A stretch of DNA of 29,049 bases from the IMG/VR virus record IMGVR_UViG_3300031656_000023, positions 1 through 29,049 of that record; one strand, given 5' to 3'. The stretch comes from a virus. Under the pieces are notes generated by a model. It was not told the origin of the DNA. It did no database searches and worked only from the letters and a program-made list of their open reading frames with translations. The position numbers and the translations under genes are program-made. Numbering within the stretch: the first letter of the stretch is position 1; each line of letters begins with the position of its first letter. This document shows, piece by piece, positions 3,001 to 27,732 of this stretch.

Positions 3001-3804
3001 ACTAAATGCGCCACTGCTATATGTAAGTCCTGTGCCGGCACTTAGATGTGCTCGTATTTCACTAGCACTTGCGCCTACTGATGTTATTACACCAGTGCCG
3101 CTGTTATATGATAATGACCCATCGCCACTATGTGTAGCACTAATGCTAAGTCTTGCTCTAGCATCTGTATAATATAAATTTGAACCTTCTGTTAGATCTG
3201 CTGTAGTTGAACTACTTTCGTCTATTAACTTAATCCAGTTGCCACCATGAGCAAAGTATCCTTTTGCTGTGCCATGTACATGAGCAAACATTCCGTGGTA
3301 TGTTGCCGCACTTGGTAAATCTCCTTCTGCGGCATACATGTTACCAAATAAAACTTTGTTTCCTGCCATGTCAAGATCAGCACCTGTTATCTCTGTTCTT
3401 GCTCTTGCGTTAGTATAATATAAATTAGTGCCTTCTGATAAATCTGTTGTAGACTTAGTTCCTAATCTAGTATCAAATCTTGCGGTAGTATAATATAAAT
3501 TAGTACCTTCTGATAAGTTGCTTGTAGATAATCCGCTTATTGAACTAGCAGTTACACTACCTGAAATACCACCTACAAATGTGTGGTTAGTTCCGTCCCA
3601 ACTTATTGTACCGTCTGACAGACCTGATGCTCTAAATTTTAGTGTTGAAGTAGTAGTACCCTGGTCTGCGTTAATAATAATCTGATCATCGTTTACTCGC
3701 AGTTCATTGGTACTGGATATAACAGTATCACCTGTTTGGTTAATTGTTGTACCAGTTAGGTCAATGTTGCCTTGGGATCTGATTATATGTTTTTTATCTG
3801 CCAT
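1..3804 (-). CDS. Giant tail-fibre-like protein with collagen-like C-terminal region (3' end beyond left edge)
   Basis: An open frame of 1268 codons runs from an ATG at 3804 off the left edge with no stop. The start follows GGAG by a good spacing and a late promoter box lies at 3839-3846. The protein begins MADKKHIIRSQGNIDL. It carries six copies of a SEGTNLYYTDARAR-like motif (coded near 3500, 3420, 3170, 1330, 1210 and 850), paired blocks of the type ASExRAHxxxG and VxRTxGTQxxAGAKTFS, and a KAASTAYVETAI element of the kind seen in phage fibres. From about residue 1020 it becomes a Gly-X-Y collagen-like repeat. Such repeat-built, glycine/serine/threonine-rich proteins are typical of tail fibres and other virion appendages; host-receptor binding is inferred from architecture. 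The receptor-binding tip, if present, lies outside the window. Confidence 0.75.
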   Translation of the reverse strand, partial: MADKKHIIRSQGNIDLTGTTINQTGDTVISSTNELRVNDDQIIINADQGTTTSTLKFRASGLSDGTISWDGTNHTFVGGISGSVTASSISGLSTSNLSEGTNLYYTTARFDTRLGTKSTTDLSEGTNLYYTNARARTEITGADLDMAGNKVLFGNMYAAEGDLPSAATYHGMFAHVHGTAKGYFAHGGNWIKLIDESSSTTADLTEGSNLYYTDARARLSISATHSGDGSLSYNSGTGVITSVGASASEIRAHLSAGTGLTYSSGAFSITNSGVTASAYGSVSAVPTFTVNAQGQLTTAADVIIAIPHTQVTDFDAEARALISVTDAGGDGSLAYNSTTGVITYTGPSASEVRAHVTGGDGIDFASGVVDVDSTVIRTTGTQSIAGAKTFSTSVVLPAVTMPSSSGGNYVAGDNSTKAASTAYVETAITSLIDGAPGTLNTLNELAAALNDDASLGTAVTNNTGDITNLKAIDLIAGVGLTGGGNLTANRTFTIGAGNYIIANVDDIAVDATTTNTASKVVARDGSGNFAAGTITATTFSGAVSTNQWELGNDIVPKVTNEGSLGSSTKKINNIHSNQADITTVNFNYANITPTASATTTGGLNIKNTDINLFSNAVTVGGAQIGFYDATEISNNAFHTTSATQILGNDSTLKAYSGGALQFQYNLDSAQANSSVQFVNARGVTSSPVLEMTKNGLTTIQNLRLLDSSNVSLAQIDPAQSSGAIATARAAGTLDGMIFYDGNNIKGIAQGSLVTLSAVDPFSLTNASSGVETSTRKNLMKKTGNLHVSRNLAVGTGLGIAEASDVVTVSFTGDTDVVTEGSSNLYYTDARARASLSASGGVTYNSGTGAISWNGTTSNVTEGTNLYHTTARARAAISVSGTALAYDNATGILSLTEAGDVTSVVAGDGLSGGATSGEATLAVDSTVVRTSGTQTVAGAKTFSASTTFTDSIVGPSSAVLFDASGKLQATALSTRSTTDLSEGTNLYYTDARVDTQINRSSAATGEVLSYNGSDYDWVAKDSGPQGDKGAQGAQGTTGDKGATGAQGPLGPQGPTGPQGTTGDKGAQGATGAQGTTGDKGATGAQGPQGNVGNKGEVGPTGAQGPQGNVGNKGEVGATGPAGATGPQGPQGNVGPVGPQGQKGVTGAQGAQGTAGTTGDKGAQGAQGFQGTAGAQGNKGEVGVTGDKGAQGAQGLQGPQGNIGPQGNDGSNGSKGQKGENSTVAGPSGDKGSTGATGPTGNPFPGGTFSGDITTQNIIATGPTGTYDIG
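97..744 (-). repeat. Collagen-like Gly-X-Y repeat region
   Basis: Within the fibre gene about 70 consecutive Gly-X-Y triplets are coded, rich in GPQ, GDK, GAQ, GAT and GNK. At DNA level this gives short imperfect repeats of ccttgtggtcct/ccttgagcacct type. Collagen-like stretches in phage fibres form trimeric rods; the repeats are also prone to length change by recombination or slippage, and to assembly collapse. Confidence 0.9.
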
Positions 3805-3838: not shown

Positions 3839-3846
3839 TATTTATC
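3839..3846 (-). promoter_or_regulatory. Late promoter box GATAAATA upstream of the fibre gene
   Basis: GATAAATA on the minus strand, matching the NATAAATA form of the T4 late promoter. It lies 35 nt before the fibre ATG, leaving a leader of about 29 nt with a GGAG ribosome site. It is placed just downstream of the capsid-operon terminator, so the fibre gene is its own transcription unit. Confidence 0.7.
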
Positions 3847-6218: not shown

Positions 6219-6845
6219 CTATTTGAGTTCTAATTCACGTATGAAGGATTCCATCATACGTGCAAGGTGTACTTCTGCTTTTTTGTCATGTGTAACGGAT
6301 TGAGCCATCTCGTGGATCCTCGCACCGCCTTTCATATTGAATAAACTTTCATAAATCGCTTTTGGGTAGGCGTCAGGAGCACTTGGTTGTGCTACTATAT
6401 CAACGGTTACTATGTCAAAATCACTAACTCTACCACTTTCATTTACATTACCACTTCCTCGGCTACTTACACCTAGTTTAGCGCCTCCTTTTAGTAATGC
6501 TTCAGCAATCTTCCCCATCGGAGTATCCAATAGTTTAAGTTTGCCGTATCCATTTGAGCCTTCGACTCGCATTTCTGATATCATATGACTGACACGATCT
6601 AAATTTATTTGCAATTCTGTAGGATGATCCAACTCGCCTAAAACAGTCTCTCCACCAGTTAGACGTTTACCAATTGATTCAACCGCTGTTATGATTTCAT
6701 CTTTTGGGTAAACTCTTCCGTTCTGATTTTTAACTTCGCCTTGTATAAACAGTCCACTCATTACTAAGTCTTTGCCATCTTTTCCTGACTCGACTATAAT
6801 GTTTGCGTTCTCTGGACTATAATATTCAAATAACTGTCTTGACAT
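6219..6845 (-). CDS. 21: Prohead core protease, gp21-like
   Basis: Serine protease that matures the prohead by cutting scaffold and capsid proteins after (L/I)-X-E sites. Visible motifs: GEVKNQNGRVYP (36-47), LDHP with candidate catalytic H74, and GVSSRGSG with candidate nucleophile S127 or S128, as in the herpesvirus-assemblin-like gp21 fold; D147 or D149 in FDIVTVDIVAQP may belong to the active site. Length 208 residues, close to T4 gp21 (212). GGGAG stands before the ATG. Lies between the acidic core-like protein and the scaffold, as in T4. Confidence 0.95.
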   Translation of the reverse strand: MSRQLFEYYSPENANIIVESGKDGKDLVMSGLFIQGEVKNQNGRVYPKDEIITAVESIGKRLTGGETVLGELDHPTELQINLDRVSHMISEMRVEGSNGYGKLKLLDTPMGKIAEALLKGGAKLGVSSRGSGNVNESGRVSDFDIVTVDIVAQPSAPDAYPKAIYESLFNMKGGARIHEMAQSVTHDKKAEVHLARMMESFIRELELK

Positions 6846-10656: not shown

Positions 10657-10685
10657 ATAATACTATATTTATCATATGAAGTCAA
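10657..10685 (-). promoter_or_regulatory. Nested promoters before the portal gene: sigma70-like plus late box
   Basis: Minus strand: TTGACT (10680-10685), a 17-nt spacer, and TATTAT (10657-10662) make a good host-type promoter. The late box GATAAATA (10666-10673) lies within that spacer. The two cannot be occupied together, suggesting a switch from host-type to gp55-type transcription of the head operon. Confidence 0.6.
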
Positions 10686-14650: not shown

Positions 14651-15577
14651 CTATAAGTATAAATCCTGCTCGTCATTGCCATTAAGAAACCTAATATACC
14701 CTTTATAATCCTCATTTAAGTTGTTTAAATGCTCGATATCCATTGATTCCACCTGTGTTATTATGTGTCCGACCTCTGTGTTATCGGTTAATTTACCGAC
14801 TTCTTTTAGATAATTCAGTGTTTTATTGTACGCATTGGCACTCTGAACTTTGTATTTTACCCTATCGTACATAGGTACTTGCTCGTCTTGTTGTAAGTGT
14901 AGCAATGCGTGATTGATATTCCTGTGTAGTACAAGTCTCATCTCGTCGGCCTCGCTTAATACCATGCCTAAGACTGCGTATAAGCCGTTGTCGCCGGTGT
15001 TCTGTGTTAATGTTACTACATGTTCCAGGCCACCAATAGCAGACGTTGTAAGCACTCTATTATAGAACTGAAACCATGACAGTTCATTGCGTATCATTAT
15101 GCCGGCATGGGCAAGGGTTATGGTATACCGCTCCGGCTCAAAATTTCTATCAGCCACATTAAGTAAACAGTAACGGTCATCGTCCTGTACAATAATCCAA
15201 TCGTACTCCGGATCTACATTCATAGTCTTTGCACTATCTATGTCTCCCGGATACAATAGCACTAGTGCTTCATTATCAGTACCGTAGACTTCCTGTAATA
15301 CGTCCTCGCCAAACTTGTTTAACAAGTAAGGAGCACTCGCACACCTAAAAAATTTATTTGCTGTTTCGACACAACACCTACTCACTGCTAACTGGCATTC
15401 TATAAAGTCCTGTACATGTCCATCTATACCACCCATGCTTGTAGGCAAGAGTAGTTTGAATAACCCTAGTTGTTTAAACCGTTGTAAGTTATCTGCGTAA
15501 GTGCTGTTGGTTATTAAGTCACAACTATCTATAAACTTATGTTTTATGTGTAACCAATTATCTTGTACTGGAATCAT
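14651..15577 (-). CDS. Acyl-CoA-dehydrogenase-like protein, reduced form
   Basis: 308 residues. Residues 31-75 read as the N-terminal helical domain of acyl-CoA dehydrogenases and related flavin monooxygenases: FKQLGLFKLLLPTSMGG followed by DFIECQLAVSRCCVETA, then YLLNKFGEDVLQEVYG (84-99). The middle GDIDSAKTM / IIVQDDDRYCLLNV resembles the beta domain, and residues 170-300 are helical as in the C-terminal domain. It is about 75-100 residues shorter than family members, and I see no catalytic-Glu loop, so activity is uncertain. It has its own late box exactly 5 nt upstream of the ATG and no ribosome site. The gene ends back-to-back with the gp51-like frame, without a spacer. Not a known T4 function; role unknown. 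Confidence 0.55.
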   Translation of the reverse strand: MIPVQDNWLHIKHKFIDSCDLITNSTYADNLQRFKQLGLFKLLLPTSMGGIDGHVQDFIECQLAVSRCCVETANKFFRCASAPYLLNKFGEDVLQEVYGTDNEALVLLYPGDIDSAKTMNVDPEYDWIIVQDDDRYCLLNVADRNFEPERYTITLAHAGIMIRNELSWFQFYNRVLTTSAIGGLEHVVTLTQNTGDNGLYAVLGMVLSEADEMRLVLHRNINHALLHLQQDEQVPMYDRVKYKVQSANAYNKTLNYLKEVGKLTDNTEVGHIITQVESMDIEHLNNLNEDYKGYIRFLNGNDEQDLYL

Positions 15578-15582
15578 ATCTA

Positions 15583-15590
15583 TATTTATA
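15583..15590 (-). promoter_or_regulatory. Perfect T4 late promoter TATAAATA, 5 nt from ATG
   Basis: TATAAATA on the minus strand, five bases before the ATG at 15577. As the T4 late box spans about -13 to -6, the predicted first base is the A of the ATG, a leaderless mRNA. A hairpin AGACAC-TTC-GTGTCT (15604-15618) lies just upstream. Confidence 0.7.
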
Positions 15591-15603: not shown

Positions 15604-16148
15604 AGACACTTCGTGTCTTTGCCAACTTCAAACTTCATTCACTTCGTTTCATGATAGTTTTTGTTTGCAATTTTTTAAAACATTTAAGTTATCAAGTAAC
15701 TTGAGCCATAATTCTCCTTAAGCAAGGAGAAGCATGTCAGGTGTCATCAAGTGAACCATTACCATCTCTAACTCGGGTGCTACTAGGAACCGGTGAGCCT
15801 TCTGTCCCCATACACTACCGTCTCGAATCTCACGGAAGTCTGTATAACGTTGTAGAGTTCTGTTACACAAACTTGTAGGTTGCTTTTTCTCAGTGCCTAC
15901 ATTCTTCTAATACTGTTTGTCGTTTGTTTGTATCTTTGCCGCTATACATCTCCAATTCTCGCACCGGGGCTACCGGATTGTCGAGGAGCCAGATATTCAA
16001 TGCCTCTGTTGGGGCGGGTGTATAGTCCTATGTGGGTGCCGTAATGCGAGTTAGACTTAGCGTCTGTGTGTGCCGTGTTTTTTGTGTTCTTCAGTAATTA
16101 GTTATCGTTTCTCAACGTTGAGTCAAACATTTTGTGAGTTACCCTTAT
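15604..16148. other. 545-nt gap without a convincing gene; possible structured RNA or decayed sequence
   Basis: The only long gap in the window. Both flanking genes carry late boxes at their very start, so the gap is not their leader. All three minus frames give protein-like fragments (for example WLLDNPVAPVRELEMYSGKD and GIEYLAPRQSGSPGARIGD), but none is longer than about 65 codons or has a start with ribosome site. Base composition is balanced (about 47% G+C at 15721-16080, 62% at 15961-16020). Possible stems: TGTAGG/CCTACA (about 15873-15902), CCGGTGAG/CTCACGG with one bulge (about 15790-15835), GCACC/GGTGC (15961-15965 with about 16035-16039), and the palindrome CTCAACGTTGAG (16111-16122). 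No tRNA found. A TTGACT on the minus strand (16121-16126) lacks a good -10 partner. Confidence 0.35.
15712..15731. other. Perfect 8-bp hairpin containing a Shine-Dalgarno sequence on both strands
   Basis: TTCTCCTT-AAGC-AAGGAGAA. Read on plus, AAGGAG precedes ATG at 15734 and a 6-codon frame (MSGVIK); read on minus, AAGGAG precedes an ATG and a 5-codon frame (MAQVT). In each case the ribosome site would be locked in the stem. Could be a translational switch, part of a larger RNA, or chance. Confidence 0.45.
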
Positions 16149-16156
16149 CATAAATA
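16149..16156 (+). promoter_or_regulatory. Late promoter box CATAAATA, 5 nt from ATG
   Basis: Plus strand; five bases (acagc) separate it from the oxygenase ATG at 16162, with no ribosome site, predicting a leaderless transcript as for two other genes here. Confidence 0.65.
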
Positions 16157-16161
16157 ACAGC

Positions 16162-16659
16162 ATGGACCCTATTATAATAAACGGCATGTTAACTAGCGAT
16201 CAGTGTGCTGACATCATAAACCAGTTACCAGACGATTCACATCACATGCCTGGCGGTACTACACTAGCACCTGGCCACTGGACTGATGCTGTCTGGAACG
16301 AAACACATAAAACTTTTAACACCCACCGAATAAGATTAGAACAGGATTCAGCGGCACATGTTAGCAGTTTAATTAAACCAGTAAGTATAGAATCAGAAAC
16401 ATACACCGTATCAAACAAAGATAATTTCTACGCAAATTATTATCTTCCTGGCGAAAGTTGTGGCTCACATAAAGATCCATCTAAGTATTCAATATGTGTT
16501 ACTCTTAATGATGAGTTTGAGGGCGGAGAATTTTCTATTAAGAATGAGCCGGTAAAACTAAAAGCAGGCGATGGTATACTTTTTTCAGGTAATAGCACTC
16601 ACGCATTAAGCGAAATAGTTTCTGGTAAAAGGTGGAGTTTATGTATCTGGATTTTTTGA
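16162..16659 (+). CDS. 2-oxoglutarate/Fe(II)-dependent oxygenase, prolyl-4-hydroxylase-like
   Basis: 165 residues. The double-stranded beta-helix metal triad is visible as H103-x-D105 in GSHKDPS and H147 in NSTHALSEI, with R157 in SGKRWSL as the 2-oxoglutarate carboxylate binder, and GGEFSI plus KAGDGILFSG as typical strands. These enzymes hydroxylate proteins, nucleic acids or small molecules using O2 and 2-oxoglutarate; the substrate cannot be told. They are frequent in marine T4-like phages. The last 21 nt overlap the convergent nuclease gene. Confidence 0.85.
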   Translation: MDPIIINGMLTSDQCADIINQLPDDSHHMPGGTTLAPGHWTDAVWNETHKTFNTHRIRLEQDSAAHVSSLIKPVSIESETYTVSNKDNFYANYYLPGESCGSHKDPSKYSICVTLNDEFEGGEFSIKNEPVKLKAGDGILFSGNSTHALSEIVSGKRWSLCIWIF

Positions 16660-17085
16660 GTCTTCTTTAAGACCTTCACGTAAGATTTTTGAACCACCAA
16701 TACGAACGTTGATAATTCCATTGTAGTACTCATCTGAGAGCAACACTTTTCTTTCAAACTGTTCTCTTGCCTCTATATAACTAGCAACACCCCTGCTAGG
16801 ACAAAAGTACAAAATTTCTCTAGTAAATTTATCTTCCCCGAGTGCTAAAACGTCTTCTTTTAAATTATCTGAACTGCCCCAATACTCACGCCAGTCTGAT
16901 TCTTTGGTACCGCGTCTTTTATTCTTTTTGCCTTTTAGTGGAGGTTTTGTTGTTTTGAATTTTGCTAACTTTTTGCCAACATACTTTTTGTCGTTGGTAT
17001 TGTTAGTTATTAGGTATACAAATGCTTCGCAGTCTTCGGGGAGGGTATCTACTACGTTGTTATTATGTAACCAATCACTGAGCAT
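16639..17085 (-). CDS. GIY-YIG-like endonuclease
   Basis: 148 residues from ATG 17085, which has GGAG at 7-nt spacing; the ATG at 17091 is too close to it. In numbering from 17091, FVYLITN (24-30) and KKYVGKK (36-41) are the two GIY-YIG strands, EYWGSS (69-74) and REILYF (91-96) follow with candidate R91, E107 in YIEAREQFE is the candidate metal-binding Glu, and N124 in YYNGIIN completes the pattern. Similar proteins in marine T4-like phages are called Seg/Hef-like homing endonucleases. It overlaps the gp46 3' end by 11 nt, so it may be a mobile gene that became coupled to the recombination operon, or a resident repair nuclease. Confidence 0.7.
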   Translation of the reverse strand: MLSDWLHNNNVVDTLPEDCEAFVYLITNNTNDKKYVGKKLAKFKTTKPPLKGKKNKRRGTKESDWREYWGSSDNLKEDVLALGEDKFTREILYFCPSRGVASYIEAREQFERKVLLSDEYYNGIINVRIGGSKILREGLKEDSKNPDT

Positions 17086-18847
17086 TAACATACTCCGTGT
17101 CGGTGTTGTAACTAGTGAAGCCTCCTTCCTTAATCACAAATAATACATCATTGACTCTACCACTTAATTCTTCTCTGTGCGAAATAAGGAATATATTTTT
17201 ATTTTGCTCTCTGCTCATTTTCTTAAGTATACCAAGTGCGTTCTCTACGCCTGTAGCATCTAAGCCACTGTCAATGAGCTCATCAATACACAAGAAGTTC
17301 ATTGGATGATTAAGACTTTCAAAAATATCTCTAAATGCCCAACTTAAACTTAGTATAAGTCTGTTACGCTCACCTCTGCTTAAATTATCAAAGTCTAGGT
17401 CTCTACCATACTCTGTAATCTCTACACTTAGGTCACTGTTAAACTTGACATCATGCGGCAAGCCAATTTCATTTAAGTAATGTGCTAGTCTGTGATTTAA
17501 GTAAGCAATGTTTTGATCAATGATACGTCTTCTAATAAAACTGTCTTTGCTTGTTAGCAGTTTGTATAAAAACTCTTGATGGTCTTTAAGAGCAGTAAGT
17601 TCGTTAATTAAATCCCAACTGACTTCTTGTATGCCTGTATTTTTCATAGACTCTATTTGATCTATGTATGGATTTTCTTCGCTATGCTTTGATCTAGTAC
17701 TTTCAATTAAGTTATCAACATTATTTCTGTGTGTTAATGCTTCTTCTAATGTTTTGTAGAATGTACTTGGACGATCCTCTACAGGACCAAGTAATCCAAT
17801 ACCGTCTTTTAAATCTTCTTCTTTAATAGTTAAACCAGTAAAGTATTCTTTTTCTTCTGCTATCTTGGTCTCTAACTCTTTTGTGTATACTTCATGTGTG
17901 TCTAAATGTGCTGTACCTTGTTCACATGTAGGGCACACTCCTTCCTTTGCTTTTACTAAGTTTGCTTCTAGCTCACTTAATTTGCTTGTACTTCTTTTAA
18001 AAGAGTTCTGTGTGTTAGATAAGTTGTTTGCTAATATATTTAAATTTGCTTCATGGTCCTTGATAACAACTAACTGGTTATGTTTTGCTACTTCACTGTC
18101 AACATCAATTTCTTTTAACTGCTCTAGAGCAGATGCCATTTCGCCTAACTTAATGTCTTTGTTTCTTTCCCATGCGTTACTGCGACTTTCTAATTCTTTA
18201 ATGTTCTTGCCCATACGTTCGTTGCTGTCTTTTACAGCATTAATACGCATTTCTTCTTCTTTGATACCGTCTCTAGTATCCTTTTGTTTGTCTTTAAGTA
18301 TTTCCGCTTTTTGCGACAGTTCTTCTATGCCAAGTAACTGCTCGATCATTTCTCGCTGATCGTTGTTTTTCATACCCAAGAATGGTTCAGTATAAGTGTT
18401 TAATGCTACAATGTGCTTAAACATTTGATGACTAAAGCCAATAATTTTTTCTATTTCTTTTTGTGTTTCTCTACTGTCGCCTTGTTGCTCTTGGTCTTCT
18501 AGTTCAGAACCGTCAACAAACAATCGTAACACATTAGGACGCCTGCCCCTTTCAATACGATATTCTTTACCGTTAAGTTCAAAGTCACATGATACAATCA
18601 TGCCTTTGGCATTTGTTTTGTTAATTAAGTTATCACGCCTAATGTTTGTTAATGCTTCTCCGTAAAGAGCATAACTGAGTGCGTTAATAATAGTAGTCTT
18701 GCCTGTGCCGTTTCTACTACCGTCGCCACCTAGGTCTAAGTTATTACCTAGCACTAAGGTTAAGTGCTTATCATCAAACCTAACGCCTTGGACGTTATTT
18801 CCGACGCTCATGAAATTCTTTACACTGATGTTTTTTATGTTTAGCAT
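17075..18847 (-). CDS. 46: Recombination endonuclease ATPase subunit, gp46-like (SbcC/Rad50 family)
   Basis: 590 residues (T4 gp46: 560). Walker A NGTGKTT at 46-52 after the usual GNN segment, long coiled-coil arms, a zinc hook CPTC at 305-308, the ABC signature LSRGERNR at 489-496 and Walker B FLCIDEL at 518-524. With gp47 it resects DNA ends for recombination-dependent replication and host DNA breakdown. The stop of the gp47 gene is 1 nt before its ATG. Part of the gp55-gp47-gp46 operon. Confidence 0.96.
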   Translation of the reverse strand: MLNIKNISVKNFMSVGNNVQGVRFDDKHLTLVLGNNLDLGGDGSRNGTGKTTIINALSYALYGEALTNIRRDNLINKTNAKGMIVSCDFELNGKEYRIERGRRPNVLRLFVDGSELEDQEQQGDSRETQKEIEKIIGFSHQMFKHIVALNTYTEPFLGMKNNDQREMIEQLLGIEELSQKAEILKDKQKDTRDGIKEEEMRINAVKDSNERMGKNIKELESRSNAWERNKDIKLGEMASALEQLKEIDVDSEVAKHNQLVVIKDHEANLNILANNLSNTQNSFKRSTSKLSELEANLVKAKEGVCPTCEQGTAHLDTHEVYTKELETKIAEEKEYFTGLTIKEEDLKDGIGLLGPVEDRPSTFYKTLEEALTHRNNVDNLIESTRSKHSEENPYIDQIESMKNTGIQEVSWDLINELTALKDHQEFLYKLLTSKDSFIRRRIIDQNIAYLNHRLAHYLNEIGLPHDVKFNSDLSVEITEYGRDLDFDNLSRGERNRLILSLSWAFRDIFESLNHPMNFLCIDELIDSGLDATGVENALGILKKMSREQNKNIFLISHREELSGRVNDVLFVIKEGGFTSYNTDTEYVNAQ

Positions 18848-20800: not shown

Positions 20801-20808
20801 GATAAATA
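20801..20808 (+). promoter_or_regulatory. Late promoter box for the baseplate operon
   Basis: GATAAATA on the plus strand; predicted start near 20814, leaving a leader of about 20 nt with AGGAG before ATG 20833. It reads away from the early promoter of the gp55 operon. Confidence 0.75.
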
Positions 20809-20832
20809 CATTATGTAAAATAGGAGATTATA

Positions 20833-21555
20833 ATGGGATTCGGGCCACCAACAACGACTAACCCAAACGACGACCATGCGTCACATACGTTTGACCAACG
20901 AGCACGTTTGCAATTATATAAAAAGAATGCCGAGACATTCTTTGAAAAGGACGACAGTAAAAAAGACGTTCTGAATCCTTTAAAGAAAAATCGCGGTGTT
21001 GTATTTCCGTATACCCCTAACATATTCCTATCAAGAAGTGCAAACTATGCCTCCATGGAATTTAAGGGTGCCAACTTTCCGATCTACTCGTATGTTAATT
21101 CGAGTCCTCCGGTTATTCCTCTTATCGCAACATTTACAGCAGGAACAAAAGAAGATGGTCAATATATGTTAGCGGCATATCGATTTTTTAACATTTTAAC
21201 ACAATCTGATTTTGGCGAAAGAGCAGTCAAGACAGGAACAAATGGCGCACCACCGCCAGTACTACAATTTTCATACTTAGGCCCATTTGGGTTTGATCGT
21301 GTTCCAGTGATACTCACAGACTTTAACATGCTGATAGGTAACAATGTAGACATGGTACCAATAGAACACTCAATGTCAAACATGGAAGACGGCAAAGGTT
21401 TTGCTAGTGCGTTTGGCGACAATGCTAATATAACATATATGCCTGTTGATGTTGAATTCACAATTAACTTACAAGTACAATACTCACCGCGTAGAGTTAG
21501 AAAAGACTTTGATTTAGACGCAATGAGGAAAGGACATAACATAGGATTTATTTAA
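20833..21555 (+). CDS. Baseplate-tail tube junction protein, gp48/gp54-like
   Basis: 240 residues. VFPYTPNIFLSRSANYASM (57-75), IPLIATFTAGTKEDGQYMLA (95-114), APPPVLQFSYLGPFGFDRVP and VDVEFTINLQVQYSP give the pattern shared by the tail-tube cap (gp48) and tube initiator (gp54) of T4-like phages, which are related to each other and to the tube protein. Which of the two it is cannot be settled; only one copy is seen here and it is shorter than both T4 proteins (364 and 320). First gene of the plus-strand baseplate operon; its stop overlaps the next ATG (TAATG). Confidence 0.65.
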   Translation: MGFGPPTTTNPNDDHASHTFDQRARLQLYKKNAETFFEKDDSKKDVLNPLKKNRGVVFPYTPNIFLSRSANYASMEFKGANFPIYSYVNSSPPVIPLIATFTAGTKEDGQYMLAAYRFFNILTQSDFGERAVKTGTNGAPPPVLQFSYLGPFGFDRVPVILTDFNMLIGNNVDMVPIEHSMSNMEDGKGFASAFGDNANITYMPVDVEFTINLQVQYSPRRVRKDFDLDAMRKGHNIGFI

Positions 21556-21858: not shown

Positions 21859-24696
21859 ATGGCCGATCCTACAAATACCGATCCTGAAAATACCCTAAAA
21901 TCTATATACATTAGTAACGATAATGTTCAACATAACATATTAGACGAATATGAAAGTTACACATATAACTTGACATTTAGTATGATGCCAATGAGTTTTT
22001 ATTATTCTGGCAATTTCACTTTAGGATCTCAGGCAAGAAAAGATGCCAAGAGAGTAATTATTGCCCAAACAGGCGTAACAACAAAATTTAATATTGATAA
22101 TTTAACCATTGAGTCAGTCACCGACAATTACGGTAGTACATTTACATCTTCTCTAACATACTCCACCCAGGCAACTTTCCAAATTCTAGAGCCACAGGGT
22201 TCTAGTTTAATTCATTTAATGCACATGGGATATAATAAATTAAAAGAAATAGACGAAGCCAACGGAAATACATTTGAAAAACTATACGGCGACTCAAAAA
22301 ATAAAGGACCACTGGACTTACCATATTTGTTAGAAGTAGATCTAATAGGACATAAGCCAATTGGCGAGCAGTATGACGAACAAGAATTTAATGTAATTGG
22401 CAAATATGTCTACCCGTGTTACTTAACAAACTTTGATTTTAATCCGCAGACTGAAGGAACACAATATAATTTTAGGCTGGTCTCAATACACAATATTGGA
22501 GCAACACTTATTCCTGAAACACGTCGGCTTGCTAAAGAGGTTACTATTAAAGGCAAAGATACCACGGAACTATTGAAGGACTTAGAAGGGCAGGTAAACC
22601 GCGACATAGTACAACGATTACATATTGCTGATACTGATTCGGCAGATGCCCAACAAAGGTCGCATGTTATAAAGATAGACCTAGGTTCAAAATATGAAGA
22701 AGATAAAAAGATGGAGCAAGAGCTCGACGATAAAGGCAAACCCAAATGGCATGCCGCCGTCCTGCCGATTGATCCAGGAAAACTAACACCAGTCACAGAC
22801 GCAGTTGGCTCCAGCGAACAAGCAGATAACGATGGTACCGGATCCAAAGAAGAAACAAAACTGCACCATGTCATGACATTAAAAAAAGGTAGATCAATCA
22901 AAGCGTGTATAACAGACATATTAGGATTGAATCATAAATTTTGTTCTCTAGTAACAGATAGAGAATTTACTAACGAAGAGAGTGACATAGGCAAACCAAA
23001 AGACCCCAAGGCCGACATATTCTCACCAAAAATACAAATGGCTCCAGTGGCTAAAGCAGGAGGTTACACAGTAACAACAGGCGGACCGGCTTATAACATT
23101 GCATACACTATAGATCTATTAAAACAAGCAGGTGTACAAACTGGTTCGCAAAAGGTTCTCACTGAGGAAGAAAAATCCAAAGCCTTAATTGACAGATGGG
23201 GCATTGTTAAGAAATATGATTATATGTTTACTGGTTTAAATGATCAAATACAAGATGTAGATATCACTTTCCCAACTGGACAAGTATTTTTGTTTCCTGA
23301 ATATGGCGGAATGTCACCTACATACAAGGATGCTCCGGCACAAGCCAGATCCTTAAAAGAGATAGCCAGCGGCAAAAAGAAAACAACAAACCGACTTACA
23401 AAAGGTGCCTTTGATGCGGAAAGTGTACTTGCTCACTTTGAGACATTAGGCAATGACTTAAGAGACATAGTAACCGGTGCTAGAACAGACGCAGTTGACT
23501 TTATTGAAGGTTTAGCGGCAATGAGACCAGGAGTAGCCGCAAATTTAAGATCCGGTAACAAACGACTACCAGCGTCACCACAGGCAGTATTTGCCAAAGG
23601 CAAGGCCATTACTCAAGCAACACAAACCATCGATAAATTATTTACAGACATACAAGATTTGCAAAAAGCAGTAGAAAGTGCGGCAGGAGAACTAGCATCC
23701 GGAATAAATGGCGGTGTTAATTTACTCACAAAGAAAATAGGAAAAATAGTTACTGAGTCCATGACTCCGTTTAATTTTAAATCATCGTTGGGCTCTGCCA
23801 TAGGTAATGTTCGAGACGGCATTGGCGGACTTGTAGATAATATCAACGACGCCACAGGCCTGACGTTGAATGCCAATGATATACCTGGGCTAGGTGAATT
23901 TGACAATATATTAAGCGATATTGAAGATGTTGCCAATTCCACAATACCTGATGGTTTTGGAACACCGGGGACAAATCCGGATTTATTTGGCGCACTTACA
24001 TATGACACAACTTCCGTAGATCAAAATCAATATTTAGAAGAATTTGACTTTAGCACGGATGAGCTCTACTCCGGAGACAGTCAATCGATAGGTTTGCCCG
24101 GTCAGGCAAACTCGGGCGATGAATTAAGTCAAGACACTACACCTAAACAACATTACACGACCACAGCATTAAGTTATGGCAAAACAGGCATACCCTACTT
24201 AGCCAGACTCACATTGGATGTTAAAGGTGACCCTTATTGGTTAGGTAGACGAAATTTTGCCAGCGAATATCAAGCAGGTATTGATGGCGACCCTATTACT
24301 GAGTCATTAATGAGGAAAGGAGGGGGATGGAAGCCTGAGTTTCTAACTTCACGCACAGAGATTGATGGCGCACCATATGATGCGGGTTCTGTATTTCTTG
24401 CTTTTAGATATGTGTTTCCAAAAGAATACGAAACATACCAAGACGACATCAATGAGCACTCGGGTAAAATAGAAATGACCACAATAGATATGTCCTACAC
24501 GGGTTACTATATGGTAGTTAAAGTTACTAATAAGTTTATTGGAGGTTTATTTACACAACAACTAGAGTCTGTTAAAATGAATACAGCACCAAACAAAGCA
24601 GTCTTTGTAGATGGCAAAGAAGTAGCAGGCCCCAATATTAATAAGGAAGGCAATAGTCTTTCAGATGATATGCTTGATGCTCTGGTCGATACATAA
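21859..24696 (+). CDS. Large baseplate hub-like structural protein (possible gp27 counterpart)
   Basis: 945 residues. N-terminal 210 residues contain beta-rich segments (ILEPQGSSLIHLMHMGYNKL, PYLLEVDLIGHKPIG, YPCYLTNFDFNPQTEGTQY) of the type found in tail-hub proteins; a middle block has KKYDYMFTGLNDQIQDVDIT (447-466); residues 560-720 are helical with Gly-rich turns; the C-terminal part (from about 775) has DPYWLGRR and YYMVVKVTNKFIGGLFTQQL. Its place directly before the gp5-like gene suggests the hub partner gp27, but it is over twice the length of T4 gp27 (391), so the assignment is an inference from position and fold-like features. Confidence 0.5.
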   Translation: MADPTNTDPENTLKSIYISNDNVQHNILDEYESYTYNLTFSMMPMSFYYSGNFTLGSQARKDAKRVIIAQTGVTTKFNIDNLTIESVTDNYGSTFTSSLTYSTQATFQILEPQGSSLIHLMHMGYNKLKEIDEANGNTFEKLYGDSKNKGPLDLPYLLEVDLIGHKPIGEQYDEQEFNVIGKYVYPCYLTNFDFNPQTEGTQYNFRLVSIHNIGATLIPETRRLAKEVTIKGKDTTELLKDLEGQVNRDIVQRLHIADTDSADAQQRSHVIKIDLGSKYEEDKKMEQELDDKGKPKWHAAVLPIDPGKLTPVTDAVGSSEQADNDGTGSKEETKLHHVMTLKKGRSIKACITDILGLNHKFCSLVTDREFTNEESDIGKPKDPKADIFSPKIQMAPVAKAGGYTVTTGGPAYNIAYTIDLLKQAGVQTGSQKVLTEEEKSKALIDRWGIVKKYDYMFTGLNDQIQDVDITFPTGQVFLFPEYGGMSPTYKDAPAQARSLKEIASGKKKTTNRLTKGAFDAESVLAHFETLGNDLRDIVTGARTDAVDFIEGLAAMRPGVAANLRSGNKRLPASPQAVFAKGKAITQATQTIDKLFTDIQDLQKAVESAAGELASGINGGVNLLTKKIGKIVTESMTPFNFKSSLGSAIGNVRDGIGGLVDNINDATGLTLNANDIPGLGEFDNILSDIEDVANSTIPDGFGTPGTNPDLFGALTYDTTSVDQNQYLEEFDFSTDELYSGDSQSIGLPGQANSGDELSQDTTPKQHYTTTALSYGKTGIPYLARLTLDVKGDPYWLGRRNFASEYQAGIDGDPITESLMRKGGGWKPEFLTSRTEIDGAPYDAGSVFLAFRYVFPKEYETYQDDINEHSGKIEMTTIDMSYTGYYMVVKVTNKFIGGLFTQQLESVKMNTAPNKAVFVDGKEVAGPNINKEGNSLSDDMLDALVDT

Positions 24697-24699
24697 ATA
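24692..24699 (+). promoter_or_regulatory. Late promoter box CATAAATA spanning the upstream stop, 5 nt from ATG
   Basis: The box overlaps the last codons and stop (TAA) of the 945-residue hub-like gene. Five bases (gcact) separate it from ATG 24705, and no ribosome site is present, predicting an internal leaderless start within the baseplate operon. Confidence 0.6.
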
Positions 24700-24704
24700 G
24701 CACT

Positions 24705-26393
24705 ATGCCTAGTATTTCAAAAACAGAAAAACAATATCAAGATAAACTTGGAACTAAACAACTTTGGTTTGGTGTAATACATCAAACAATTGACGCAACC
24801 AGAATGGGAAAAATGCTAGTTCATATACCTGATATTACAGGCAATGACACATCACTCAAAGCATTATTTAATTGTCATTGGACATCACCATTTGCTGGTG
24901 CTACACAGTTAGGTTCCAACGCTGACGAAACATCAGAAGGTGCTACACAAACCAGTTACGGTATGTGGATGAGACCGCCCGATCCGGGCACACAGGTTGT
25001 AGTAGGGTTAATAATGATCAACGCCGTAGTAGAACCAGTTATACTTTCATGTTTATTTCATAATTATAGAAACTTTATGGTTCCGGGTATACCAGCAAGT
25101 GATACCGGAGAAGGACCAAATCCGTCTGCTGAAATAAATATAAACAACGACGTAAAAAGTCATAATGTAAAATACACTAACAAGGGAGCGGATGTTGAAG
25201 TTAAATCCGCAAAAAGACCCAGATCAAAATTAGCAGACAATTTATTTTATCAAGGCCTAGGCGATGATTTCGTAAGAGGTCAAAGTACCAGTGGCGCAAG
25301 AAGAGAAGACAACTCAGAGGTGTTTGGAATATTAACACCGGGCTCACGTAAAGACGGTGACCCTGGAAAACGTAATCCAGGACATCAATTTGTTATGGAT
25401 GACAACGATACAAACAATTTAATTAGATTGCGTACAGGCCAAGGAATGCAACTATTATTAAATGATACACATGACATCATTTACATAGTAAATAAAAAAG
25501 GCACAGGCTATGTTGAAATAGATGGCGACGGTAACATAGATGTATTTGGCAAAAGCAGTATTAACCTTAGAACAATGGGAGACCTAAATCTAAGAGCAGA
25601 TCAAAATGTAAACATCGAAGCAGGCCAGGACGTTAATATAAAGGCGGCCAACAATGCTCCACATCCATATGATAAAAGCAGAGGCTTAGGCGGAGTGGTA
25701 GATGATATTGATTTAGCACACATGGATCCAATGTTTGGCGCAGACTTTTTAAAAGCCAATAACAGAGGAACAGTTAATATTGAAGGACAGAACAATGTTA
25801 ACGTAATTGGTAAAAATTTAAAATTCACAGCATGGCCAAGTTTGATGGGCATTAAAGAAGGAACAGACGGCACTATTGATTTTCTATCAGCGGGACCTTT
25901 ATCCATACAGTCACAAAATATTATAGCAAACGCATTAGGTAGAGCAAACGAAAATTCAGTTATACCTGGCATCATTTATTTACAGTCAACTGGCACATCG
26001 TCTTTAAGAGCCGAGGCACAGGTTGTTATAAACAGCAAATTAAAACTTGATCTAGAAGGATCTTTGGTTGATATTGCTACTAAGGTAACACCACCAACAG
26101 TAATCCCAGTAATTAGACCAGGCGATTATATTAAAACTAACAAGAAAAAAATGACGCTATTTGGATTTGATACGCAACTACTACCAATCCCTGTACCATC
26201 AGCCATAGCACCATCTAAGCAAATACAAGGTAAGACAATTACAGGATTAGGTAAAGGAAACCCAGGAGAGTCCATTCCAGCATGGGAAGGGTTAGGAACA
26301 GGCGGAATAAAAACTATTCTTTCAAGAGTACCTCAACCTGAGCCAAGTAGATCTAAAAAGGATAAACCGTTCAGAGGTCAAGACAATGATTAA
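24705..26393 (+). CDS. 5: Baseplate hub spike protein, gp5-like, without lysozyme domain
   Basis: 562 residues. Residues about 18-125 form the OB-fold of gp5/VgrG spikes (WFGVIHQTIDATRMGKMLVH, MRPPDPGTQVVVGLIM, VVEPVILSCLFHN). A repetitive beta-helix follows (GYVEIDGDGNIDVFG, SINLRTMGDLNLRADQNV, NIEAGQDVNIKA) that makes the membrane-piercing needle. In T4 gp5 a lysozyme domain lies between the two; here none is seen, and a lysozyme-fold protein is coded by the next gene instead. The C-terminus is Pro/Lys-rich. It overlaps the next gene by 8 nt. Confidence 0.85.
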   Translation: MPSISKTEKQYQDKLGTKQLWFGVIHQTIDATRMGKMLVHIPDITGNDTSLKALFNCHWTSPFAGATQLGSNADETSEGATQTSYGMWMRPPDPGTQVVVGLIMINAVVEPVILSCLFHNYRNFMVPGIPASDTGEGPNPSAEININNDVKSHNVKYTNKGADVEVKSAKRPRSKLADNLFYQGLGDDFVRGQSTSGARREDNSEVFGILTPGSRKDGDPGKRNPGHQFVMDDNDTNNLIRLRTGQGMQLLLNDTHDIIYIVNKKGTGYVEIDGDGNIDVFGKSSINLRTMGDLNLRADQNVNIEAGQDVNIKAANNAPHPYDKSRGLGGVVDDIDLAHMDPMFGADFLKANNRGTVNIEGQNNVNVIGKNLKFTAWPSLMGIKEGTDGTIDFLSAGPLSIQSQNIIANALGRANENSVIPGIIYLQSTGTSSLRAEAQVVINSKLKLDLEGSLVDIATKVTPPTVIPVIRPGDYIKTNKKKMTLFGFDTQLLPIPVPSAIAPSKQIQGKTITGLGKGNPGESIPAWEGLGTGGIKTILSRVPQPEPSRSKKDKPFRGQDND

Positions 26394-27724: not shown

Positions 27725-27732
27725 TATTTATT
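27725..27732 (-). promoter_or_regulatory. Late promoter box AATAAATA for the two small genes
   Basis: Minus strand, between the receptor gene's stop (27736) and ATG 27692. Its tight fit behind the receptor gene shows that gene is set within the phage's own transcription layout. Confidence 0.6.

Follow-up and report, generated by a model that had tools for sequence, protein, structure and literature searches.

Three genes in a 29,049-base virus record, a fragment of an uncultured T4-like phage, very probably have gp55-type late promoters that give leaderless late mRNAs, and these sites would be part of a systematic second class of late promoter. The whole of this record is called the window below, and a spacer of five nucleotides between promoter box and ATG is written N5 (likewise N4, N6, and so on). 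In the proposed mechanism, transcription from a T4-type (gp55-dependent) late promoter would start on the A of the start codon, and host ribosomes would enter the leaderless message via its 5'-terminal AUG. In the first class of late genes, a leader of about 10-35 nt would carry a Shine-Dalgarno (SD) site. The N5 class appears to be common to this clade of marine T4-like phages, the pelagiphage HTVC008M, and a 328-kb jumbo phage contig (G011).

Late-promoter boxes in the window

Genes in the window include those for the T4-type portal (gp20), the major capsid protein (gp23), and baseplate proteins. By capsid protein the closest cultured relatives are PA5oct-like jumbo phages (67%), and a megablast search of the window matched no phage record. 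An origin from a cyanophage is therefore unsupported.

The window has 12 copies of the NATAAATA box on both strands. Three of these boxes are separated from a gene's ATG by exactly 5 nt (15577 on the minus strand, 16162 and 24705 on the plus strand; Table 1), and no SD sequence is found upstream of any of the three. Box, spacer, and ATG are all as given in the preliminary description of this DNA, which predicted leaderless late mRNAs from them and considered the identical spacing unlikely to be chance. With about 25 gene starts, approximately 0.005 exact N5 coincidences are expected in the window (Poisson probability of at least three, ~2e-8). The same description had all other late genes with a longer leader and a ribosome site. 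This holds for the four contrast boxes in Table 1, which precede SD-like or weak SD sites. It does not hold throughout, since for several genes no separate box is present and not every box is near a gene start. An AGGAG SD precedes the major capsid gene.

Table 1. Predicted late-promoter boxes, spacers, and genes in the window
Feature	Position	Strand	Remarks
Box TATAAATA of gene 14651-15577	15583..15590	-	sequence and orthologs
5-nt spacer TAGAT, box to ATG (15577-15575)	15578..15582	-	predicted +1 is the A of ATG at 15577
Predicted leaderless gene, 308 aa (MIPVQDNWLH...)	14651..15577	-	orphan
Box CATAAATA of gene at 16162	16149..16156	+	sequence and orthologs (L084, G004, G005, G015)
5-nt spacer ACAGC	16157..16161	+	before ATG at 16162
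Predicted leaderless gene, 165 aa, 2OG-Fe(II) oxygenase superfamily	16162..16659	+	PF13640, 30.6 bits (cut-off 27)
Box CATAAATA, overlapping stop codon of upstream gene (24694-24696)	24692..24699	+	
5-nt spacer GCACT	24700..24704	+	before ATG at 24705
Predicted leaderless gene, 562 aa, baseplate hub / tail lysozyme family	24705..26393	+	phrog_13211
Contrast box GATAAATA, SD-led class	20801..20808	+	N24 to ATG at 20833, GGAG SD
Contrast box GATAAATA	3839..3846	-	N34 to ATG of gene starting at 3804, GGAG SD
Contrast box GATAAATA	10666..10673	-	N36 to portal gene (10629-8914)
Contrast box AATAAATA	27725..27732	-	N32 to gene 27692-27414, AGGA SD

The 308-aa protein has no PHROG or Pfam match. Another gene in the window (16639-17091, minus strand) has the PHROG name 'NAD synthetase' (phrog_447), and homing endonuclease families also match it. 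The start of its protein (FVYLITN...KKYVGKK) resembles a GIY-YIG domain, so that the PHROG name may be wrong. Downstream of the SD-led box at 20801 (window 20801-20818, plus strand), ATG TAA is found at N4, so that the predicted mRNA would have a start-stop at its 5' end. A mini-ORF at N5 (MIAIAENTA-stop) is similarly placed in one of the related contigs (G006).

Spacing between box and start codon across genomes

The distance from ATAAATA to the ATG of ORFs of at least 60 codons was counted over the whole contigs of 17 relatives and over T4, Syn9, PA5oct, and HTVC008M. In the window, the relatives, HTVC008M, and PA5oct together, there are 72 such ORFs at N5, four at N4, five at N6, and ten over N7-N13, with a broad class from about N15. 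The flat distribution of spacings that the preliminary description named as a refutation was thus not found. When the ORF filter is left out, 75 of the 464 distinct ATAAATA boxes in the window, the 17 related contigs, and HTVC008M are followed by ATG at offset 5, about nine times the average of ~8 at offsets 0-4 and 6-17. The ATGs at N5 also open long frames: 63 of 77 open at least 80 codons, compared with 20 of 118 at other short offsets. After removal of near-identical contexts, the numbers are 53 at N5, 4 at N4, 5 at N6, 13 in total over N7-N14, and 161 over N16-40. Box-to-ATG spacing therefore falls into two classes, an N5 spike and a broad SD-led class at N16-40, and N7 to N14 is almost empty.

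By genome, nine genes are at N5 in HTVC008M and 21 in the 328-kb contig, whereas T4 and Syn9 have none, with 28 and 17 genes, respectively, at N15-40. Seven of the nine HTVC008M ATGs are at record positions 6280, 7562, 16007 (minus strand), 18916 (minus strand), 19456, 31132, and 49760. The depositors of HTVC008M had independently placed the start at the N5 ATG in each gene checked, namely those for 2OG oxygenase, CsgF, tape measure, DNA end protector, tube cap, and gp25 and one further wedge gene. Permuted heptamers (n = 20) give a mean of only 0-0.6 per record at N5. CTAAATA and GTAAATA are likewise above background at this distance.

These counts bear on the simplest alternative, that the three sites are coincidences in an AT-rich genome. 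With one mismatch allowed, the octamer occurs in the window no more often than in shuffled sequences, as a chance origin would have it. Such an origin is nevertheless vanishingly improbable given three sites for the 0.005 expected, the excess at offset 5 among the 464 boxes, and the conservation in orthologs described below, and the flat controls refute it.

Several candidate extensions of the N5 class were rejected. Sigma70-like -10 hexamers give no comparable ATG spike that would point to leaderless early genes. An N5 class is not claimed for PA5oct: only two of its eight raw N5 matches open 60 codons, and the maximum for permuted heptamers is four. Nor is one claimed for GAP32 and XbC2, which have two conserved matches; those of GAP32 are not annotated gene starts.

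By eye, several N5 genes of the 328-kb contig (L189-L205) resemble host metabolic genes. They include IscU-like (at N6), QueC-like, and nucleotidyltransferase-like genes and one with a PilX-like start.

Predicted transcription start and Shine-Dalgarno sites

Both classes have the same GATAAATA box. The base before it is G in 58% of N5 sites and 63% of leader-class sites, and because of this shared G the two kinds of box seem to be one promoter. Leader-class sites have A at box+6 in 100 of 150 cases (67%; background 41%, p ~2e-10) and mostly T at box+5. This preference places +1 at box+6, in agreement with T4 geometry (PMC2988020), and provides a statistical mapping of the predicted start that is independent of the N5 genes. 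In the N5 genes, box+6 is the A of ATG, with T just before it in 79%. From the leader-class preference and the T4 geometry, we infer that +1 would be this A. Late promoters can start within about a base of +1. Some N5 mRNAs may thus carry one or two extra nucleotides.

An SD-like motif is found in 5 of 53 N5 genes compared with 109 of 161 leader-class genes (p ~3e-14). Among ORFs of at least 80 codons at N5, 63 start with ATG, one with GTG, and none with TTG; this near-lack of GTG and TTG fits leaderless initiation. Host ribosomes would presumably translate the N5 messages. Overall, the prediction of leaderless late mRNAs is supported by the box-specific N5 spike, conservation in orthologs, the missing SD, and the A-rich position at box+6 of the leader class.

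A fixed distance to ATG and a missing SD in the same genes would also be expected if ATAAATA-N5 were not a promoter but an element of translation initiation, an AU-rich, S1-type ribosome site at -12 to -6. We consider this very unlikely. The same box with the same preceding G is found 16-40 nt upstream of SD-led genes, where a role as ribosome site is impossible, and there the A preference at box+6 marks a transcription start. Permuted A/T heptamers do not substitute for the box. In addition, GAP32/CBB-type relatives are reported to use ATAAATA as a late promoter (PMC5259590).

Late sigma factor gp55

A gp55-type sigma was found in all 19 records searched (12 related contigs and seven phages). 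No gp55 gene was identified in the 29-kb window itself, and its presence in this phage is deduced from the relatives. In contigs of this clade gp55 is about 280-320 aa (phrog_12791), longer than the 185 aa of T4. GAP32 has the same gp55 family as these contigs, and HTVC008M has the short T4-type form. The N5 sites thus have three features of T4-type late promoters: the NATAAATA/TATAAATA box, a start about one helical turn downstream with no conserved -35 (both statistical), and a gp55-type sigma (in relatives only). By this family link, a gp55-type holoenzyme would use the box here.

Conservation in orthologous genes

All three genes keep the spacing in their orthologs. For the gene at 15577, CATAAATA-N5/N6-ATG is found in eight of eight orthologs (N6 in two closely similar copies) and also in G004, G005, and G015. 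For the gene at 16162, N5 is found in every ortholog examined (L084, G004, G005, and G015). N-terminal residues of both proteins are conserved, which indicates that the starts are right. The N-terminus of the hub protein encoded at 24705 is more variable than these two. Its orthologs have xxTAAATA-N5-ATG in L005-L009, L012, L013, and L020, and AATAAATA-N5-ATG in G002, G003, G005, and G016. In one ortholog (L010) the box is lost, and GGAGG is found before ATG instead.

The promoter at 24705 is less certain than the other two because its box shares bases with the stop codon of the preceding gene and position 2 of the octamer differs among relatives (TTAAATA/GTAAATA). Because of this overlap, the upstream transcript may also cover the gene by read-through, adding a second message. 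Read-through can be proposed for the class as a whole: the late promoters would be real, but N5 genes would mostly be expressed from longer upstream transcripts, with leaderless starts incidental and translation by coupling or from weak AU-rich sites. The gene at 24705, 8 nt after an upstream neighbor whose TAA stop overlaps the box, and several HTVC008M N5 genes within same-strand gene runs are consistent with this possibility. It does not, however, predict the exact N5 spacing, and SD sites are not found before N5 genes. A 584-nt intergenic stretch separates the divergent genes at 15577 and 16162, and some other N5 boxes lie directly 3' of terminator-like hairpins (HTVC008M 6280, G012, and G014). 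We therefore regard read-through as very unlikely to be the main route, and transcription from the N5 promoters themselves as the preferred explanation.

In all records, 81 sites at N4-N6 fall into 47 gene/protein families, of which gp25 is the most widespread. Homologs of gp25 are at N5 or N6 in all 24 pelagiphage loci listed. In a group of more distant relatives of the pelagiphages they range from N5 to N8, and those at N7-N8 have a leader of 2-3 nt. Late promoters of the gp25 family (e.g., L048, L054, L044, and L225) share the inverted repeat TTAA-N8-TTAA, which precedes the box by about 10-25 nt (e.g., ATTAAAACTTCTTTTAAT). At other late promoters no shared upstream element was seen, and a general one resembling a -35 was rejected.

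Judging from the sequences, one gene (protein start MSxRLTKALEFA) is a natural switch between the two classes. It has the box and a leader of 24-30 nt in G001, G002, G007, and G009 (with AGGA in G001, G002, and G009). Its ortholog in G012 (L284:19653) is at N5, directly after a terminator-like hairpin.

Comparison with known systems

T4 late promoters, which depend on gp55, gp33, and gp45, have an 8-bp TATA box that precedes the start by about one helical turn and lack a conserved -35 (PMC2988020, PMC7892883). The promoters described here are alike in the 8-bp box, the spacing, the lack of a conserved -35, and the gp55-type sigma gene (in relatives). They differ in that T4 and the cyanophage Syn9 have only leader-class spacing, while here there is a second class with +1 predicted on the start codon. 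In jumbo phages CBB and GAP32, ATAAATA late promoters have been predicted (PMC5259590). The same heptamer precedes structural genes here, but GAP32 has no visible leaderless class. In pelagimyophages, late-promoter prediction by the method used for cyanophages was unsuccessful (PMC7029224); a box-to-gene distance near zero may partly explain this failure.

We found no report of leaderless T4-type late mRNAs in the open-access literature, and subscription papers may mention them. A leaderless second architecture of late genes is thus apparently unreported so far. The cI mRNA of lambda is leaderless. Leaderless mRNAs also exist in mycobacteria (PMC4633059). The N5 messages are like both in having no SD and an AUG, with almost no GUG or UUG, at the predicted 5' end. 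Unlike them, the N5 messages, which are predicted from sequence, would come from late promoters specific to phages and, in this clade, belong to baseplate, hub, and accessory genes.

Implications for late gene expression

T4 late transcription is a textbook system, and its promoters are thought to feed SD-led messages. If the proposed mechanism is true, the phage sets the translation mode by promoter placement, and the class is conserved among T4-like phages that are abundant in the sea, one of them a cultured phage of SAR11. The N5 genes would then be a natural gene set to test leaderless initiation in SAR11-type hosts. The class may also explain the trouble that start-site and late-promoter predictors have in these phages, and box-N5-ATG would mark true starts without SD in annotation.

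It is possible, though rather doubtful, that promoter position alone sets two parallel modes of late translation, SD-led for abundant virion proteins and leaderless for baseplate, hub, and accessory proteins of low copy number. Which mode is used could respond to the state of ribosomes late in infection, perhaps aided by a phage-coded bS21. A bS21 gene is found in the 328-kb contig and in HTVC008M, but also in phages without the N5 class, and a link between the two was rejected.

A candidate structured RNA between the divergent genes

The 584 bases between the genes at 15577 and 16162 are about 89% identical in relatives. Approximately 440 nt of them (window 15620-16060, minus strand), upstream of the 15577 gene, are a candidate structured noncoding RNA. 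No consistent long reading frame was found in its 24 non-redundant copies, and it has no match in Rfam or in 50,697 phage records. At 17 predicted pairs, pairing is preserved across these copies (at least 85%) although two or more Watson-Crick types occur, and the consensus fold of the minus strand is more stable than that of the plus strand. A 27-base signature of this RNA is present in 62 viral-contig stretches, where it usually follows another ORF of the same strand and no late box is present. A minus-strand hairpin at 15604-15618 (AGACAC-GAA-GTGTCT), about 15 nt before the box at 15583-15590, may be the 3' end of the RNA. The hairpin is invariant in most relatives, and its counterpart in L169 has the compensated form AGACTC-GAA-GAGTCT.
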